From an uncultured Eubacteriales bacterium (lineage in GTDB: Bacteria; Bacillota; Clostridia; Christensenellales; Aristaeellaceae), in the NCBI GenBank assembly GCA_902767315.1, contig CACXHB010000030.1, positions 1 to 64,000 on the forward strand: a DNA stretch of 64,000 nucleotides, read 5' to 3'. Each line of letters begins with the position of its first letter. The first letter of the stretch is position 1. Of the stretch, positions 6,238 through 35,505 are shown piece after piece. The notes under the pieces are model-generated. The model was not told where the DNA came from. It was given only the letters and a program-made list of their open reading frames with translations, and made no database searches. Position numbers and translations under genes: made by a program.

Positions 6238-9200
6238 ATGAAGAAAAGGTTCGCGGCGCTTCTGACAGCGGTGTTGCTTTGCCTGTCGTGCACAGGCCTG
6301 GCGGACGTCGTGGTTCAGAACGATCATATTTCCGCCTATCTGGACAGCACCGGCGGCGTAATCCTTACCGGATACGATACCAGGATCAACGCCACGGATG
6401 CCTACACCCTGGTGGCCATCGACGCCACGCGGGTGGTGTACCTGGTGGAGACGGGCACAGACGGAGTTTATAATCTGGTCTGCGCCGATTTTGCCACCTC
6501 TACGGAAACCGTTATGGCCCAGGGCGTGACCCTGGCATGCGGTTACGGCGGCGAAGGCATCTATTTCGTCACCGCCCAGGAGCCTGCCAAGGTGCAGTAT
6601 CTCACCTATGGCGGTGCGCTGAAGGAAATCTATTCCTCGGAAGAAAACGTGGAGGATTTGCAGATTTCCTATCACGGGCTGATGATTTGCTTTGCCCAGG
6701 ACGCCGGCGCGGTGGTGCTGGACGGCACCTTCGGCATGGTCAGCGAATTCAACGGCCAATTGGGCGTGGAACGCCGGGTTATGAACGGCAAAGATCTGAT
6801 CCTGACCGCCAGCGGCGATCTGTATCTGGACGATCCCACGCAGATTTTTACCTCTAAAATCGCCGGAGACGTGGATCAGTTTGAGACCATGGACGGCTAT
6901 GTTTATTACATTACCGAAGCCAAGGAAGGCCGGGTGCTGCGGCAGTATTCCCCGGACACCCTTTCCTGGCAGGACGTGAACATGAACGGCCTGGGCCAGC
7001 CCCAGTGCCTCACCGCCAGTTACGACCAGGCGCTGGTCATGGCCGACACGGGCAAGGTTTACGCCATTCGCGGGGAAAGCTGCACGGTGACGGAATTTGC
7101 CACGGTGACGGTGCCCCAGGGCGTGGACATGAAAAACGTGTCCATCCGCGGCGTCAGCGGCCAGTTGAACGTGTACGCTCAGGAGCCTGAGGACGCGGGA
7201 TATGTGCTGGCCTTCAACTTCAATTTTGTTTCCGATTCCGGAAACGGCATCTACGACGAGGCGGCTCAGGCCAACGAGAAGACCAAGATCACCCTGCTGG
7301 CCATGACGCCCCTGTCTTCGGAAATCAATACCTTTGATATTCTCACCCCGGCCCGGAAGTATCAGGTGCTCAGCTACGGCAGCCGCGGCGACGCGGTGAG
7401 CGAGCTGCAGCAGGCGTTGACGGATCTGGGATACCTCAACGACAAGGTGGACGGCATTTTCGGGCCCCGCACCCGTTACGCCGTGCGGCTTTTCCAGGAT
7501 TTCAACGGCTTTAAGGTGACGGGCATTGCCGACAAGGACACCCAGGAATACCTGTTCGACGGCAATCCCCCGGTATACGACAAGTATCGCCAGATTTCCT
7601 ATGGCGCCCGCGGCCTGCGGGTGACCGAGATGCAGGAACGGCTGCGTTACCTGGGCTACATGGCCGACCCGGCCGACGGCATTTACGGCCCCTACACCCG
7701 GGAAGGCGTGCGCCTGTTCCAGGAGGAAAACGGCCTGAACCAGAGCGGCGTGGCGGACGCGAAAACGCTGAAGGCCATCTACAGCGTCACCGCTCCCAAG
7801 TGCTCTTCCTATTTTGAAATGAATTACGGCGACAGCGGCTGGCGGGTTCGTGCCATGAACCGGCGGCTGAAGGAGCTGTATTATCTGGAAGGCACCGCCG
7901 GCTCCACCTACAATTCCGCCACCAAGGCCGCCGTGAAGCTGTTCCAGCGGGAGTGCGGCATGGTGCAGAGCGGCGTTGCCAGCGCTTACATGCAGCAGAA
8001 GCTGTTCTCCCGGAATGCGCCTACCTACAGCGGATATATCACCCTGCGCCGCGGCGACAACAACGACCGTGTGGCCGAACTGCAGCGGCGGCTGCGGGAT
8101 CTGGGATATCTGGACAGCGGCGACGTGGACGGCTATTATGGCCGCAGAACCGCGGCGGCGGTGAAGGAATTCCAGAAGATGGCGGGCCTGCCCATTACCG
8201 GCGTGGCCGATCCGGTGACCCAGGAGCTGCTCTTCGGTCCGGACGCGCCCTATAAGCCCGTGATTGCGGAAATCTCCGCGCCCAAGTTCTACATTTCCAA
8301 TTATTCCGACGAGACTCAGCCCGGCCGTTATACGGTGAACGAGGGCAGCGTGACCATCGGCTGGCAGGTAACCGGATCGGTGGACGGATATTATATGGAA
8401 ATCACGGACGGCTCCGGCTGCCTGGTGCGCAACGGCTATCTGTACGACACGGAAATCAAGCTGGACGTGACGGCTCTGCATGCCAACGAGGCCTATACCA
8501 TCACCATTTCCGCCATTCCGGAAAACGGCACCATGAAGAACGCCAAGACCAGCTCCATTACCATCGTGACCCCCGTGCGGGAAGAGCCGACGCCTGAACC
8601 GACCCCGGTGCCCACGCCGGAGGTGCTGCCCACCGTGGAGCCTACGCCCACGCCGGAAGTGACCCCCGTGCCGCCGGTGGACGTTCCTGTAATCAGCGTA
8701 AGCGGCGATTACGCCATGGATGGCAACGTGTACGTGGTGGGCGCGGAAGGCGCGCGCTTTGCCTGGACCCGCGTTGAGGGCGTAAGCTACAATCTGACGC
8801 TGAAGGACGCGGAAGGCAACGCAGTGAAAACCCTGGAGGACGTGTCCGACAACTTCGTGACGCTCCAGTCCGCCGACCTGACCGAGGGCGTGACCTACAC
8901 GCTGGAGGTGCGGGCCTATTACACCGGCACCGACGCAAATGCGGGTCGTGCCACCAACATTCAGCTGACCGCGGCTTCCACGCAGCCGGATCCCACCGAG
9001 CCTCCGGCCACGGAAGCGCCCGTGCAGCCCATCGTCATCAACATCACCGTGATTAACGCCGACAAGATTGGCGACACCTGGTATCTGGGTCAGGACGCCC
9101 GGGTAGAATGGCAGGCGGACGGCGATGTGAAGGATTACAGCGTCGAAATGATCGACGGCCAGGGCAACGTGCTCAGCGGCGAATATAACACGGCGGAAAT

Positions 9201-11454
9201 GGCCATGAACGTGGACGAAAACGCCATGGTCCCCGGCGAAACCTACGGATTGCGCATCACGGCCAACGGCGAGGGCGAAACGGTGGACGAAACCGTCTAC
9301 CTGGCCGCGCCTGAGGAAGCGACTCCCGAACCCACTCAGGAGATTACGCCCGAACCTACGGAAGCGGTAACGGAAGAGCCCACCGTGGAACCCACGGAAG
9401 AGCCTACCGTGGAACCGACGGAGGAGCCTACGCCCGAACCGACGGAGGAGCCTACGCCTGAACCCACGGAGGAGCCTACGCCCGAACCCACGGTCGAGCC
9501 CACGCCCGAACCCACAGTCGAGCCGACGCCCGTGCAGGTGCAGGTAACGGTGGACGACGCGACGCTGGCGGACGATGTGTATTACATCGGCGAGGAAACC
9601 ACGGCGCTGATTTCCTGGAGCAGCACCGGCGAGGCCACCAGTTACACCCTCTATCTGAAGGATGCGGAGGGCAACGTGCTGCAGCAGGCGGACAACACCG
9701 AATATACAGCCATGTACATGGCGGGCGCGAACCTGCCGGAAGGCAATGTATACAGCGTGACCGTAGTGGCCCACGAACCCAGCGGCGATGTGGAATCTAC
9801 GATCTATATCGCGCGGGCGGCGGCCCAGACGGAAGCCCCTGCCGAACCCGCGAAAGCTCCCGCAGAACAGAACCCCGAAGTTACGCCGGAGCCTGTGGAA
9901 GAACCGGCGCACACCGTAAGCCAGCCCACGGTCAACGTGGAAAATTACGCCAATTTCGACGGCAATGTCTACTGGATTGACGGCGACAGCGTGACCATTA
10001 CCTGGAGCACGGAAGGCGATCTGGCTTACTACAACGTGTACCTTTACGGCGCGGACGGCACGATGATCAATTCCGCGGCGGAGGTTACCACCAATTCCCT
10101 GAACCTGAATGCCGGCGCCTTTGAGGCGGGCAGCGTTTACACCCTGACGATCTGCGCGGTGCCGGTGGACGGCACGGAGGAAACCGGCGCTTCTGCCAGC
10201 GTGAATCTGGCCAAGGCCGCCCAGCAGCCCACGGAACCGGAGATTACCCCCGAACCCGAGCAGCCCGCGGAACCGGAGATTACCCCCGAACCCGAGCAGC
10301 CCGCGGAGCCTGTGTACAACGTGAGCGCACCGGTGGTGAACATCGAAGGCAGCGACGCATACGACGGCGTAAACTGCGCATTCACTGGCGATTTGAGCGT
10401 CAGCTGGTATGCGGAGGGCGACGTGGGAAGCTATGACCTGTATCTGTATGATCAGGACGGCAATGTGGTTTCACAGGCGGCCGGCGTAACCCAGACCAGC
10501 GTGAACCTGGCGGCGGACAACTTCGCCGAGGGCGCGGCGTACACCCTGGAAATCGTGGCGATTCCGGTAAACGGCACGGCTGAAAACGGCGCGTCCACCC
10601 GGATTACCCTGACCCGCACGGCCCCGGCTCAGCCGGAACAGCCTGCGGAACCGGAGATCACCCCCGAGCCCCAGCAGCCCGCGGAGCCTGTGTACAACGT
10701 GAGCGCACCGGTGGTGAACATCGAAGGCAGCGACGCATTTGACGGCGCATATTGCACTTTCAGCAATGATCTGAGCGTCAGCTGGTATGCGGAGGGCGAC
10801 GTGGGAAGCTATGACCTGTATCTGTACGATCAGGACGGCGATCCCCTGTCGCAGGTGAACGGCGTGACCCAGACCAGCATGAACCTGGCGGCGGACAATT
10901 TCGCCGAGGGCGCGGCGTACACCCTGGAAATCGTGGCGATTCCGGTAAACGGCACGGCCGAAAACGGCGCGTCTACCCGGATCACCCTGACCCGCACGGC
11001 TCCGGCTCAGCCGGAACAGCCTGCGGAACCCGATTATACCGAACCGGAACAGCCCGCGGAACCTGATTATACCGAACCGGAACAGCCCACCGAGCCCGAT
11101 GATTCTGAGCCCGACTATTCCGAGCCGGTGCAGCAGGGCATGTGGGATACGCCCATGGACGGTACTTCCGATTGGGAGAAGATTTCCAACTATCAGCGCA
11201 AGCTGGTGGAATGGGGCTGGATGAGCTTCGAGGGTGAAGGCGCGGCCACGGAAGGTGTGTTCGACCAGACCACCATGATTGCCACCCGGAACCTGCAGGA
11301 GTACATCAACAGCCTGTATGTGAGCGATTCCGGATTTGTGCCGCTGGAGGTCATTGATCTGAACGCAGACGCGCCGTATGTGGGCGTGGATACCCTGCAG
11401 ATGATCATGCCCGATACCGCAACGCAGACCTTCGTGAATCCCGACATGATGTAA
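6238..11454 (+). CDS. Giant exported protein: peptidoglycan-binding modules, Ig-like repeats and Pro/Glu/Thr linkers
   Basis: A 1738-residue secreted or wall-associated protein. A signal peptide ends near residue 22 (GLA-D). Residues about 25-340 look like a beta-propeller (repeated short strands such as TRVVYLVETG). Four PG_binding_1 modules follow at roughly 373-440, 450-516, 525-590 and 598-668; each has an LGYL.. and DGIFGPRT-like core, with the third degenerate. About seven Ig/fibronectin-like modules fill 680-1590, separated by linkers rich in PTPEPTEEPT (notably 1028-1098). The C-terminal 90 residues resemble another peptidoglycan-binding fold. No catalytic domain or LPXTG anchor is visible, so wall attachment through the binding modules is inferred. 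An AAGGAGG site precedes the ATG. It may act in adhesion or wall architecture; the true function is unknown. Confidence 0.85.
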   Translation: MKKRFAALLTAVLLCLSCTGLADVVVQNDHISAYLDSTGGVILTGYDTRINATDAYTLVAIDATRVVYLVETGTDGVYNLVCADFATSTETVMAQGVTLACGYGGEGIYFVTAQEPAKVQYLTYGGALKEIYSSEENVEDLQISYHGLMICFAQDAGAVVLDGTFGMVSEFNGQLGVERRVMNGKDLILTASGDLYLDDPTQIFTSKIAGDVDQFETMDGYVYYITEAKEGRVLRQYSPDTLSWQDVNMNGLGQPQCLTASYDQALVMADTGKVYAIRGESCTVTEFATVTVPQGVDMKNVSIRGVSGQLNVYAQEPEDAGYVLAFNFNFVSDSGNGIYDEAAQANEKTKITLLAMTPLSSEINTFDILTPARKYQVLSYGSRGDAVSELQQALTDLGYLNDKVDGIFGPRTRYAVRLFQDFNGFKVTGIADKDTQEYLFDGNPPVYDKYRQISYGARGLRVTEMQERLRYLGYMADPADGIYGPYTREGVRLFQEENGLNQSGVADAKTLKAIYSVTAPKCSSYFEMNYGDSGWRVRAMNRRLKELYYLEGTAGSTYNSATKAAVKLFQRECGMVQSGVASAYMQQKLFSRNAPTYSGYITLRRGDNNDRVAELQRRLRDLGYLDSGDVDGYYGRRTAAAVKEFQKMAGLPITGVADPVTQELLFGPDAPYKPVIAEISAPKFYISNYSDETQPGRYTVNEGSVTIGWQVTGSVDGYYMEITDGSGCLVRNGYLYDTEIKLDVTALHANEAYTITISAIPENGTMKNAKTSSITIVTPVREEPTPEPTPVPTPEVLPTVEPTPTPEVTPVPPVDVPVISVSGDYAMDGNVYVVGAEGARFAWTRVEGVSYNLTLKDAEGNAVKTLEDVSDNFVTLQSADLTEGVTYTLEVRAYYTGTDANAGRATNIQLTAASTQPDPTEPPATEAPVQPIVINITVINADKIGDTWYLGQDARVEWQADGDVKDYSVEMIDGQGNVLSGEYNTAEMAMNVDENAMVPGETYGLRITANGEGETVDETVYLAAPEEATPEPTQEITPEPTEAVTEEPTVEPTEEPTVEPTEEPTPEPTEEPTPEPTEEPTPEPTVEPTPEPTVEPTPVQVQVTVDDATLADDVYYIGEETTALISWSSTGEATSYTLYLKDAEGNVLQQADNTEYTAMYMAGANLPEGNVYSVTVVAHEPSGDVESTIYIARAAAQTEAPAEPAKAPAEQNPEVTPEPVEEPAHTVSQPTVNVENYANFDGNVYWIDGDSVTITWSTEGDLAYYNVYLYGADGTMINSAAEVTTNSLNLNAGAFEAGSVYTLTICAVPVDGTEETGASASVNLAKAAQQPTEPEITPEPEQPAEPEITPEPEQPAEPVYNVSAPVVNIEGSDAYDGVNCAFTGDLSVSWYAEGDVGSYDLYLYDQDGNVVSQAAGVTQTSVNLAADNFAEGAAYTLEIVAIPVNGTAENGASTRITLTRTAPAQPEQPAEPEITPEPQQPAEPVYNVSAPVVNIEGSDAFDGAYCTFSNDLSVSWYAEGDVGSYDLYLYDQDGDPLSQVNGVTQTSMNLAADNFAEGAAYTLEIVAIPVNGTAENGASTRITLTRTAPAQPEQPAEPDYTEPEQPAEPDYTEPEQPTEPDDSEPDYSEPVQQGMWDTPMDGTSDWEKISNYQRKLVEWGWMSFEGEGAATEGVFDQTTMIATRNLQEYINSLYVSDSGFVPLEVIDLNADAPYVGVDTLQMIMPDTATQTFVNPDMM
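9330..9535 (+). repeat. Low-complexity repeat encoding PTPEPTEEPT-type linker
   Basis: About 200 bases of tandem near-copies of a 12-15 base unit coding for alternating Pro, Thr and Glu, inside the giant exoprotein gene. It encodes an extended acidic linker, is a likely site of replication slippage, and should vary in length between strains. Confidence 0.8.
10303..11035 (+). repeat. Two near-identical tandem 378-base repeats encoding Ig-like modules
   Basis: The segment beginning GCGGAGCCTGTGTACAAC at 10303 recurs at 10681, an offset of exactly 378 bases (126 codons). The copies agree over nearly all of their length, including synonymous positions, differing mainly around 10361-10400 versus 10739-10778 and around 10465-10485 versus 10843-10863. 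Synonymous-site identity points to a recent duplication or ongoing gene conversion. Confidence 0.88.
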
Positions 11455-15756: not shown

Positions 15757-17163
15757 TTACAGGCGAATATTCAGCCACTTGCCCTGGCGGATGCGATGGT
15801 ACAGGAGAATTTCCCGCACAAAAGCATCCAGCACAAAGGCGATCCAGGGGCCGGTCATGGCCATTTGCAGGTGCGGAAACGCCTCGTTTACAGGATAGCA
15901 CAGAACATAGGTAAAAATGGGGCGGAGAATGGCCACGCTGATGAGGGAGCAGACGGCTACGTACTTTACGTCGCCCGCGCCCCGCAGACAGCCGGAATAC
16001 ACCACGCGGCCGTTCTGCGGCAGAATGCCCACCACCACCACCAGGAAGGCCAGGGTCGCGCCGTAGATAATGGCCTCGTCGGTGGTGAACAACGCCGCCA
16101 GGGAACGGCGGAACACCAGAATCAGCGCCATCAGCACCAGAGAGGTGACCACGGAAAGCTTGCGGCTGATGCGCACGTTGGCCATGGCCAGGTCCTTTCG
16201 CTTGGCGCCCAGGGACTGACCTACCATGGTAGCCCCTGCGGCGGCGATGCCGTCGCCCAGGGTGAAGGAAAGACCGGTGGTCTGCTGCACGATCTGATAG
16301 GTGGCCATGGCGCTGGTACCGATGCCGGCGATGAGCCGGGCATTAATCAGAAAGCCCAGGCGCAGGAAGACGGATTCCGCCATGGAGGAGGAACCCACCT
16401 TGAACAGGCCGCCCAGGGTAACCCGGTCGAATTTCGGAATGCGGAACCGGAACTGCAGATAACCGTCCGGGCGCATGGAAAACCAGAAGGCGATGACGCA
16501 GGCCACGCAGGTGCCGATGGTGGTGGCCAGGGCCGCGCCCCTGACCCCCATGGCCGGGAAGCCCAGATGGCCGCCGATGAGGCAGTAATTGAAGCAGACG
16601 TTTACCAGATTGGCGGTGATGTTGGTCACCATGGTGATGCGGGTCTGGCCGATGGCCCGCATGGCGGCGCAGAGACAGAGGTTCCAGTAACTGCAGGGGA
16701 AGCCCAGGGCGATGATTTTGAAATAATCCGTAGCCAGGCCTAGGGTTTCTTCATTGGCGCCGGCAAAGCGCATGAAAGGTTCGGCGAAAATGTAGCCCAC
16801 CGCGGCCATGAGGAAGCCCAGCAGCGTCACCACGAACATGGACTGCATCAGGGTGGAATTGGCCCCCGCCCGGTCGTCCGCGCCCTTGCGCCGGGCCACC
16901 AGCGCCGTGGTGCCCACGCACAGGGCCTGGGCCAGAATCAGCAAAATCATGCGGGGCTGGCCGGTGATGCCCACGGCGGCGATGGCCTCCGAACCCAGGG
17001 TGCCCACCATCATGGTGTCCACCGAGCCGATGATGGCCATGAGCGCGCCTTCCACCGTGGCGGGCCAGGCAATGGAGAGATTCTCTTTGTACAGCTCCAT
17101 AAGCGTGGGCTGACTGTTTTCCGGATAATCCTTGATGCCAAAGCAGCGCCTGACAAGATTCAT
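15757..17163 (-). CDS. MATE-family multidrug/organic cation efflux protein
   Basis: A 468-residue membrane protein with about twelve hydrophobic segments. The N-terminal repeat contains ENLSIAWPATVEGALMAIIG and SVDTMMVGTLGSEAIAAVGI; the second contains the equivalent GDGIAAAGATMVGQSLGAKR. These are hallmark MATE (NorM/DinF) sequences, so it exports cationic compounds using a Na+ or H+ gradient. The start at 17163 has GGAAG upstream; the frame extends further upstream without support. Its promoter is divergent from that of the PucR-type regulator, but whether that protein controls it is unknown. Confidence 0.93.
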   Translation of the reverse strand: MNLVRRCFGIKDYPENSQPTLMELYKENLSIAWPATVEGALMAIIGSVDTMMVGTLGSEAIAAVGITGQPRMILLILAQALCVGTTALVARRKGADDRAGANSTLMQSMFVVTLLGFLMAAVGYIFAEPFMRFAGANEETLGLATDYFKIIALGFPCSYWNLCLCAAMRAIGQTRITMVTNITANLVNVCFNYCLIGGHLGFPAMGVRGAALATTIGTCVACVIAFWFSMRPDGYLQFRFRIPKFDRVTLGGLFKVGSSSMAESVFLRLGFLINARLIAGIGTSAMATYQIVQQTTGLSFTLGDGIAAAGATMVGQSLGAKRKDLAMANVRISRKLSVVTSLVLMALILVFRRSLAALFTTDEAIIYGATLAFLVVVVGILPQNGRVVYSGCLRGAGDVKYVAVCSLISVAILRPIFTYVLCYPVNEAFPHLQMAMTGPWIAFVLDAFVREILLYHRIRQGKWLNIRL

Positions 17164-34141: not shown

Positions 34142-34153
34142 TTTTTATACACG

Positions 34154-34188
34154 GACTGTCGCTTCTTTTGAGGCGGCAGTCTCTTTTT
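34154..34188 (+). terminator. Rho-independent terminator after the BmrCD-like operon
   Basis: GACTGTCGC and GCGGCAGTC pair with one G-U around a 10-base loop, followed by TCTTTTTA. Confidence 0.85.
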
Positions 34189-34274: not shown

Positions 34275-34303
34275 TTGCAAAATTGCCGCTAACGCGATAC
34301 AAT
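34275..34303 (+). promoter_or_regulatory. Promoter of the PilT-like ATPase gene
   Basis: TTGCAA (34275-34280), 17 bases, TACAAT (34298-34303), with a leader of about 105 bases. It indicates that the ATPase gene is transcribed on its own. Confidence 0.65.
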
Positions 34304-34414
34304 AGAGGCAGTGAAAAAAGATACGCTTTTCAGCCGGAAGGGGACCGGTGTAAAAGCAATTTATTTCAAAAGAAAACGCTGCCGCGGGGAATGGGCAGAC
34401 AGGGGGAAACGGGT

Positions 34415-35464
34415 ATGGAATTATACGAAATCATTGCCAGAACGGTCAATATGGGCGGATCGGATATTTTTGTAATTCCCGGTTCGCCGGTGATTGTGAA
34501 ATGCCGGGGACAGTATCTTCAGCTGGACAATGAGAAAATGATGCCCGCGGACACGGAGATGATACTGCGGGAAATTTATGACATGAACGCCAGCCGGACG
34601 CTGGACGATTTGATGTACAGCGGCGACGACGACTTTTCCTTTTCCATTCAGAACGTGGGCCGGTTCCGCTGCAACGCCTTCCGCCAGCGGGGTTCTCTGG
34701 CGGCGGTGCTGCGGGTGGTGAGTTACGGCGTGCCGGATCCAGAAAAGATCGGCATTTCGGAAGAAGTGATGGAACTTTGCAACCTGAAATCGGGCATCGT
34801 GCTGGTCACCGGCCCGGCAGGCGGCGGCAAAACCACCACCCTGGCCTGCATGGTAGACCGGATCAACCGCACCCGGAACGGCCACATCGTCACCATCGAA
34901 GATCCCATCGAATACCTGCATCCTCACGGAAGCTGCATCGTCAGCCAGCGGGAGGTGCGCACGGATACCGGCACCTTTGCCGGGGCGCTGCATTCCGCTC
35001 TGCGCCAGGGCGCGGACGTGATCATGCTGGGGGAAATTCCTGATAACGACACCGTGGCCACGGCCATTACCGCGGCGGAAACGGGGCATCTGGTGCTTTC
35101 GGCCATGAACACCATCGGCACCATGCGCACGGTGGAGCACGTGGTGGAGGGTTTCCCGGCCAATCAGCAGCAGCTCATGGGCGTGCGGCTGGGCACGGCG
35201 CTGGAGGCGGTGATTTCCCAGGAACTGGTGCCCACCATGGATGGAACGGTGATCCCCGTGTTCGATGTTTTGCGGGTGGACGACGAAATGCGCACGGTGC
35301 TGCGCAGCGGCGTACTTTCCGACAAATGGGCAAATTTCAGCCAGGGACTGATGCTGAGCAACCTGGACAAGGAGATTTTGCATCTCTATCACGAAAAGCG
35401 GATTACCCGGGAAACGGCGCTGACCTATGCCGTGCGCCCGGACGCCGTGAGCAAGCTTCTATAA
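34415..35464 (+). CDS. PilT-like type II/IV secretion family ATPase (orphan)
   Basis: A 349-residue hexameric-type ATPase related to the twitching motility retraction motor PilT. The N-terminal domain has FRCNAFRQRGSLAAVLRVVS; the ATPase core has Walker A GPAGGGKTTT (about residues 132-141), the Asp box VTIEDPIEYLHPHGS, and AITAAETGHLVLSAMNT. Two positions usually strict in PilT differ: Walker B is followed by EIPDND where E-M-R-D is usual, and the His box THTNSA is replaced by SAMNTIGT. No pilin, PilB or PilC gene is in the window, and it has its own promoter and terminator. Motor activity for an elsewhere-encoded pilus, or another role, cannot be decided. Start at 34415 after GGGGGAAACGGGT. 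Confidence 0.87.
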   Translation: MELYEIIARTVNMGGSDIFVIPGSPVIVKCRGQYLQLDNEKMMPADTEMILREIYDMNASRTLDDLMYSGDDDFSFSIQNVGRFRCNAFRQRGSLAAVLRVVSYGVPDPEKIGISEEVMELCNLKSGIVLVTGPAGGGKTTTLACMVDRINRTRNGHIVTIEDPIEYLHPHGSCIVSQREVRTDTGTFAGALHSALRQGADVIMLGEIPDNDTVATAITAAETGHLVLSAMNTIGTMRTVEHVVEGFPANQQQLMGVRLGTALEAVISQELVPTMDGTVIPVFDVLRVDDEMRTVLRSGVLSDKWANFSQGLMLSNLDKEILHLYHEKRITRETALTYAVRPDAVSKLL

Positions 35465-35468
35465 AAGA

Positions 35469-35505
35469 AACAGCGTCTTCCGCAAAGAGGAAGGCGCTGT
35501 TTTTC
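35469..35505 (+). terminator. Rho-independent terminator after the PilT-like gene
   Basis: AACAGCGTCTTCC and GGAAGGCGCTGTT pair with one G-U, followed by TTTTCC. Confidence 0.85.

Follow-up and report, generated by a model that had tools for sequence, protein, structure and literature searches.

The window (the whole 64,000-nucleotide stretch analysed here) contains a PilT-like ATPase gene with unusual catalytic boxes and no pilus genes around it. PilT-type ATPases are known as motors, so what does this one do? It could still pull on something, it could have been given another job, or it could be decaying into a pseudogene.

The gene is read directly from the sequence as an ATG followed by an intact frame, 349 codons in all (Table 1). 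Its product is homologous over its whole length to the type 4a pilus ATPases of the PilT/PilU family: its top match among PilT structures is the solved A. aeolicus PilT, 2gsz (260 bits, residues 2-344). With NCBIfam TIGR01420, which describes the PilT/PilU family, it scores 316.3 bits (E 2.6e-94). This narrowly misses the curated cut-off of 319.1, but TIGR01420 is still its best family by far. (Six relatives score 394-427 bits.) Pfam PF00437 matches residues 83-276 with 117.6 bits. The family relatives listed are 45-55% identical to the window protein over nearly the full length, and no homologue above 55% identity was among the matches listed in the family search or in the order search, which covered 396 genomes drawn from a larger group. 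A wider locus search gave three loci, myxobacterial and from a deltaproteobacterial assembly, which are 35-38% identical, and no close relative. An AlphaFold2 model built from an input of three sequences had a mean pLDDT of 46.5.

Table 1. Features in and around the PilT-like gene (window coordinates; residues are those of its product).
Feature	Coordinates	Strand	Evidence or remark
Terminator-like hairpin after the upstream ABC-transporter gene	34153..34182	+	Separates the ABC gene from the PilT-like gene
Possible sigma-70-type promoter, TTGCAA-17-TACAAT	34275..34303	+	9/12 consensus match; ends 112 nt before the start codon
Likely ribosome-binding site, AGGGGG	34401..34406	+	Direct reading of the sequence
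PilT-like ATPase gene, 349 aa	34415..35464	+	ORF list, HMM scores, alignment with relatives
Walker A, GPAGGGKTT, residues 133-141, intact	34811..34837	+	Alignment with relatives
Asp box, IEDPIEY, residues 161-167, intact	34895..34915	+	Alignment with relatives
R193H	34991..34993	+	Arg in 136/136 relatives
Walker B end, GEIPD, residues 206-210; Glu207 kept, M208I, R209P	35030..35044	+	Alignment
His box, AMNT, residues 230-233, H232N	35102..35113	+	Alignment
AIRNLIRE-like motif, residues 291-298, reads EMRTVLRS	35285..35308	+	Direct comparison
Intrinsic-terminator-like hairpin 3' of the PilT-like gene	35467..35503	+	-24.5 kcal/mol, z -4.4

The altered boxes that the original prediction described are real. 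The protein reads GEIPDND at residues 206-212 and SAMNTIGT at residues 229-236, and it is alone in having GEIPD and AMNT: GEMRD occurs together with SLHT or TLHT in all 136 of the family orthologues that we aligned, and together with LHT in 11/11 order-level homologues. (The 136, of which 107 were fetched separately and 29 are loci from the family search, come from 160 matching relatives; the other 24, which had weaker, partial or unlisted matches, are outside this census.) The alteration is far beyond chance. Such boxes in a related group with ordinary PilT function would have spoken against the original prediction, and so far the 136 family and 11 order-level homologues have yielded no such group. 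One detail needs correction. The His box had been compared with HTNSA, but the relatives read LHT[ILVT]GA, so the "IG" is normal for the family and the real changes are L231M, H232N, and A236T.

Besides these changes, much of the ATP-binding machinery is in place. Walker A, the Asp box, the catalytic Glu, and the first His-box His are common to the window protein and PilT/PilU; the residues kept include Walker A Lys139, Asp-box Glu162, Glu207, His225 (in TGH), and the N-domain arginines 83, 85, 92, and 100. The window protein differs from PilT/PilU by R209P, H232N, a degraded AIRNLIRE-like motif, and the lack of any pilus genes that we could find. Counting from the catalytic Glu, residue 209 corresponds to Arg206 of PilT, and we take residue 232 to be its His229. 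By the same count, residues 193 and 232 correspond to Arg221 and His260 of DotB (DotB numbers from an excerpt of PMC6153414). Arg221 of DotB points to the ligand of the neighbouring subunit, that is, it acts in trans (PMC6153414, excerpt). By motif, the H232N site equals His420 of PilB, which coordinates the gamma-phosphate (PMC5424180, excerpt). A pair of His-box histidines is stated for the PilT family (PMC6762196, excerpt); the second of the pair is Asn232 in the window protein. As for the AIRNLIRE motif, it is required for PilT retraction, and its mutation leaves hexamers in place while PilT function is lost in vivo (PMC6153414, excerpt). The window version shares only the two arginines with AIRNLIRE, versus 5-6 of 8 residues in the relatives, which mostly have AIQNMIRD, AIQNLIRE, or AVQNLIRD.

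The Walker-B-adjacent arginine is also replaced in a natural isolate: PilT of V. cholerae MO10 carries R206S, and the strain is hyperpiliated (PMC6762196, excerpt). That is a single point change with PilT and the pilus system otherwise intact, whereas the window protein has many changes and no system was found for it.

How unusual is the protein as a whole? Of the 110 near-invariant alignment columns (at least 97% conserved), it is altered at 24, against 6 for the next most altered sequence and a median of 0. In a tree of 148 tips, 11 of them from the order, it has the longest terminal branch (0.91; the next is 0.68 and the median is 0.07). These changes are not spread evenly. Among columns that are at least 95% conserved, it keeps 56/59 up to residue 192 and 37/61 after it (P = 5.5e-6, Fisher's exact test), so that 24 of the 27 changes fall after residue 192. 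As we had picked this boundary after viewing the alignment, we scanned all boundaries and permuted the changes: the best split is after residue 229, and none of 20,000 permutations reached the observed maximum.

Distance by itself does not produce this pattern in the order-level homologues. In a second alignment, which has 64 rather than 61 conserved C-half columns, the window protein (identity of 0.55 to the family consensus) keeps 37/64 C-half and 56/59 N-half columns, while the eleven order-level homologues (identity 0.53-0.63) keep 50-63/64 and 50-56/59. The nine of them with similar identity (0.53-0.58) keep 50-60 of the 64 C-half columns. Three distant homologues (L078, L080, and L083) also lose more in the C-half (13-14/64, versus 7-8/59 in the N-half), so part of the tendency is natural, but the loss in the window protein, 27/64, is about twice theirs. 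Its loss is one-sided: the C-half has been released, whereas canonical orthologues conserve their N-half no better than it does.

In the relatives, the orthologous PilT comes last in a seven-gene operon, after genes for a transglutaminase-like protein, PilC, a GspG-like protein, a DUF4860 protein, and two pilin-like proteins. The relatives have both the boxes and the operon, and the window copy has neither. Of 20 loci that we fetched (L036-L055; for example, L051 5849-10533 and L052 8726-13462), all 20 have PilC, the GspG-like protein of about 105 aa, DUF4860, and the two small pilin-like genes ahead of PilT, and 19 are headed by the transglutaminase-like protein. "GspG-like" and "pilin-like" are our own readings of the sequences: one or two examples of each small operon protein were compared with Pfam and NCBIfam and gave no significant family except DUF4860, for which a literature search found no paper. 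At E 1e-20, 161 of the 308 genomes of the family (the window's own included) have a match to the gene and 147 do not; among the more complete genomes, 59/120 lack one. Outside the family, DUF4860 and both pilin-like genes are adjacent in the 12/12 best-scoring loci of the order search. (At two deltaproteobacterial loci that we searched for the DUF4860 and pilin-like proteins, there were none.) The operon is thus widespread in the family and present elsewhere in the order. One genome, G305, has a second set of PilC, GspG-like, DUF4860, and pilin-like genes on its contigs C15 and C24, and four strong matches to the transglutaminase-like profile.

PilC is present in 29/31 and 77/78 PilT-bearing relatives in two sets of genomes. 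The exceptions are G090, G187, and G075, whose operon genes continue to the edge of a contig; their PilC could lie in sequence missing from the assembly. For 28 of the 31 relatives, we found neither a PilB-like ATPase scoring above 400 bits nor a prepilin peptidase above the PF01478 cut-off. Only G167, G222, and G236 have both, and these three probably have a classical type IV pilus in addition to the operon. Frames of about 310 aa with weak T2SSE matches (26-39 bits) also occur (G096:C4, G105:C134, G056:C21, G222:C11, and others); we assume that these are possibly the sporulation ATPase SpoIIIAA. Because the operon PilT is usually the only strong pilus ATPase, with no PF01478 protein over the cut-off, the operon may be an undescribed, PilT-only filament system. 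Among the matches listed in literature searches on PilB-less PilT systems, orphan PilT, transglutaminase-like proteins with pili, and PilT as the sole ATPase, seen in excerpt, the operon is undescribed. Operons for type IV pili in Gram-positive bacteria have been surveyed via a PilB-type ATPase plus PilC (PMC3244431, excerpt), an approach that could have missed a PilB-less operon. A possible model is CpaF of Tad pili, a single bifunctional ATPase that serves a filament system (PMC12019362, excerpt). CpaF belongs to another ATPase subfamily and does not serve as a model for the orphan in the window, for which no system was found.

Is any of this operon left in the window's genome? The assembly is a draft of 2.6 Mb in 168 contigs, 94.7% complete and with contamination listed at 0.3%. 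The PilT-like gene is its only strong T2SSE ATPase; the other T2SSE match, on contig C32, has 19.1 bits and is below the cut-off. Pfam's PilC finds no match in the assembly, and a family-specific PilC profile finds none on the contig. The GspG-like, DUF4860, and second pilin-like profiles have no match in the assembly, and the first pilin-like profile has only a partial match of 14 bits, inside a 626-aa frame. (As controls, the DUF4860 profile and both pilin-like profiles match strongly in 9/9 relatives.) The operon transglutaminase profile reaches 24 bits here, compared with 302-409 bits in 29/31 PilT-bearing relatives and 24-33 bits or nothing in 7/7 genomes without the gene. PF01478, the one profile used for prepilin peptidases, has no match over the cut-off in the assembly; a match below the cut-off at 15937-16164 (22.2 bits) lies inside a MATE transporter. 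Remnants of the six partners were sought in the window and in the remaining 8.3 kb of the 72-kb contig (C30), and none was convincing; one weak match in the window (E 0.52) was rejected. So the statement that no pilus gene is nearby holds for the contig, and the search for pilins and PilB elsewhere, which had been suggested as a check, extends the orphan status to the whole assembly, with no PilB and no convincing pilin: the PilT-like gene is the only gene of the relatives' operon that we found in it. As the assembly is 94.7% complete, partners could sit in the missing part.

Terminator-like hairpins flank the gene on both sides, with no other gene between them. Upstream is an ABC exporter pair and downstream are alpha-L-rhamnosidase genes, neighbours that suggest no new function for the protein. 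Codon-position GC is gene-like in both halves of the gene and resembles that of the neighbours. The gene had been credited with its own promoter and terminator. The promoter in Table 1 is plausible, but the scan that found it gave 3 sites versus 1.0 ± 1.2 in shuffled sequences, which is not clearly above chance. The highest-scoring promoter-like site in the region scanned is antisense and just inside the start of the gene (TTGACC-18-TATAAT, 34449-34420, minus strand, 11/12). The putative terminator folds well, but it is absent from the list of a consensus terminator scan. Farther away, a frame of 1738 aa (6238-11454, plus strand) probably encodes a repetitive surface protein; it contains several stretches of 71-85 aa that share 65-72% identity with a frame (L044 2-730) close to the operon of a relative.

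We propose that the gene descends from the PilT-type motor of the family's filament operon and that the rest of the operon is gone from this genome. By homology, its most likely fold is still that of a PilT-type N-domain with a RecA-type core, and it most likely still binds ATP-Mg. It has lost Arg193 (trans-acting in DotB), the Walker-B Arg209, the gamma-phosphate His232, and the AIRNLIRE-like helix motif. It would no longer turn a platform or retract a filament, and its ATP hydrolysis would be poor or nil, though the catalytic Glu207 remains. It may have been retained in a role other than that of a motor, as an ATP-binding and perhaps oligomeric switch or scaffold. That the window protein is such a repurposed ATP-binding protein with weak hydrolysis, orphaned from a PilT-type filament motor, seems to us somewhat probable.

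The main rival is that the gene is a decaying relic: the operon was lost, its last gene was left behind, and this gene, being unneeded, is heading to a pseudogene. The missing partners, the longest terminal branch, and the lost near-invariant residues would all be expected of a relic. Absence of the gene is common in the family, including its more complete genomes, and relaxed constraint on half a protein can also precede gene loss. However, a relic would not be expected to keep its N-half as conserved as canonical orthologues do while its C-half is released, nor does it readily account for the gene-like codon-position GC and the terminator-like hairpin. The intact frame cuts both ways. In a neutral simulation (300 frames, substitutions only, with one relative's gene as the start), no frame was stop-free at 54% identity, which is the window gene's distance to that relative, but 7/300 were at 70% identity and 13/300 at 80%, so the intact frame is weaker evidence if the relaxation is recent. 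Given the conserved N-half, the gene-like codon-position GC, and the simulation, we favour retention by selection, and hence reuse, unless the relaxation is recent. A relic seems unlikely to us, if less so than a working motor or a foreign contig.

A still-working, specialised motor would need an unrecognised and very divergent platform or membrane partner to drive. The intact Walker A, Asp box, catalytic Glu, and N-domain arginines would suit such a motor. Yet PilC is absent by both the Pfam and the family-specific profile, in the scopes given above, and the gamma-phosphate His, two conserved arginines, and the AIRNLIRE-like motif are lost together, the last being a motif whose mutation abolishes PilT function in vivo without breaking the hexamers (PMC6153414, excerpt). 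We consider this improbable. Retraction in particular is unlikely because neither PilC nor a pilin was found and because residues that are needed in known PilT are lost, which leaves the suggestion of a specialised retraction motor unsupported. Finally, the gene could come from another organism by an assembly artefact or a foreign contig. The assembly is a draft in many contigs, and no other genome of the genus was among the matches listed. But the gene lies inside a 72-kb contig, its codon-position GC is like that of its neighbours, the listed contamination is low, and the family itself supplies its best matches, so this explanation is very improbable. A repurposed ATPase, the other half of the original guess, is the better half: the frame has stayed open on the tree's longest branch, and the part that binds nucleotides is fully conserved. 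The repurposing itself is an inference.

More tentatively, and as a possible rather than a probable account, the protein would be a motor without a filament that has turned into a stand-alone ATP-binding switch, its nucleotide-binding half preserved by selection and its half for hydrolysis and force transmission rewritten. Its source would be a widespread and apparently undescribed PilT-only type IV filament system, usually without PilB or a recognisable prepilin peptidase, whose operon includes a transglutaminase-fold protein.

The window orphan can be viewed as a natural experiment on what a motor of the secretion superfamily becomes without its machine. The comparison with the relatives would show which residues are kept (those for ATP binding) and which are released (those for hydrolysis and transmission) once pulling is unneeded. 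Of the two, the operon of the relatives may hold the greater interest. It occurs in many families of the order, usually with a PilT-type protein as its one strong pilus ATPase, which bears on whether PilT-type motors can extend filaments, and also on how pilins may be matured without a recognisable prepilin peptidase.
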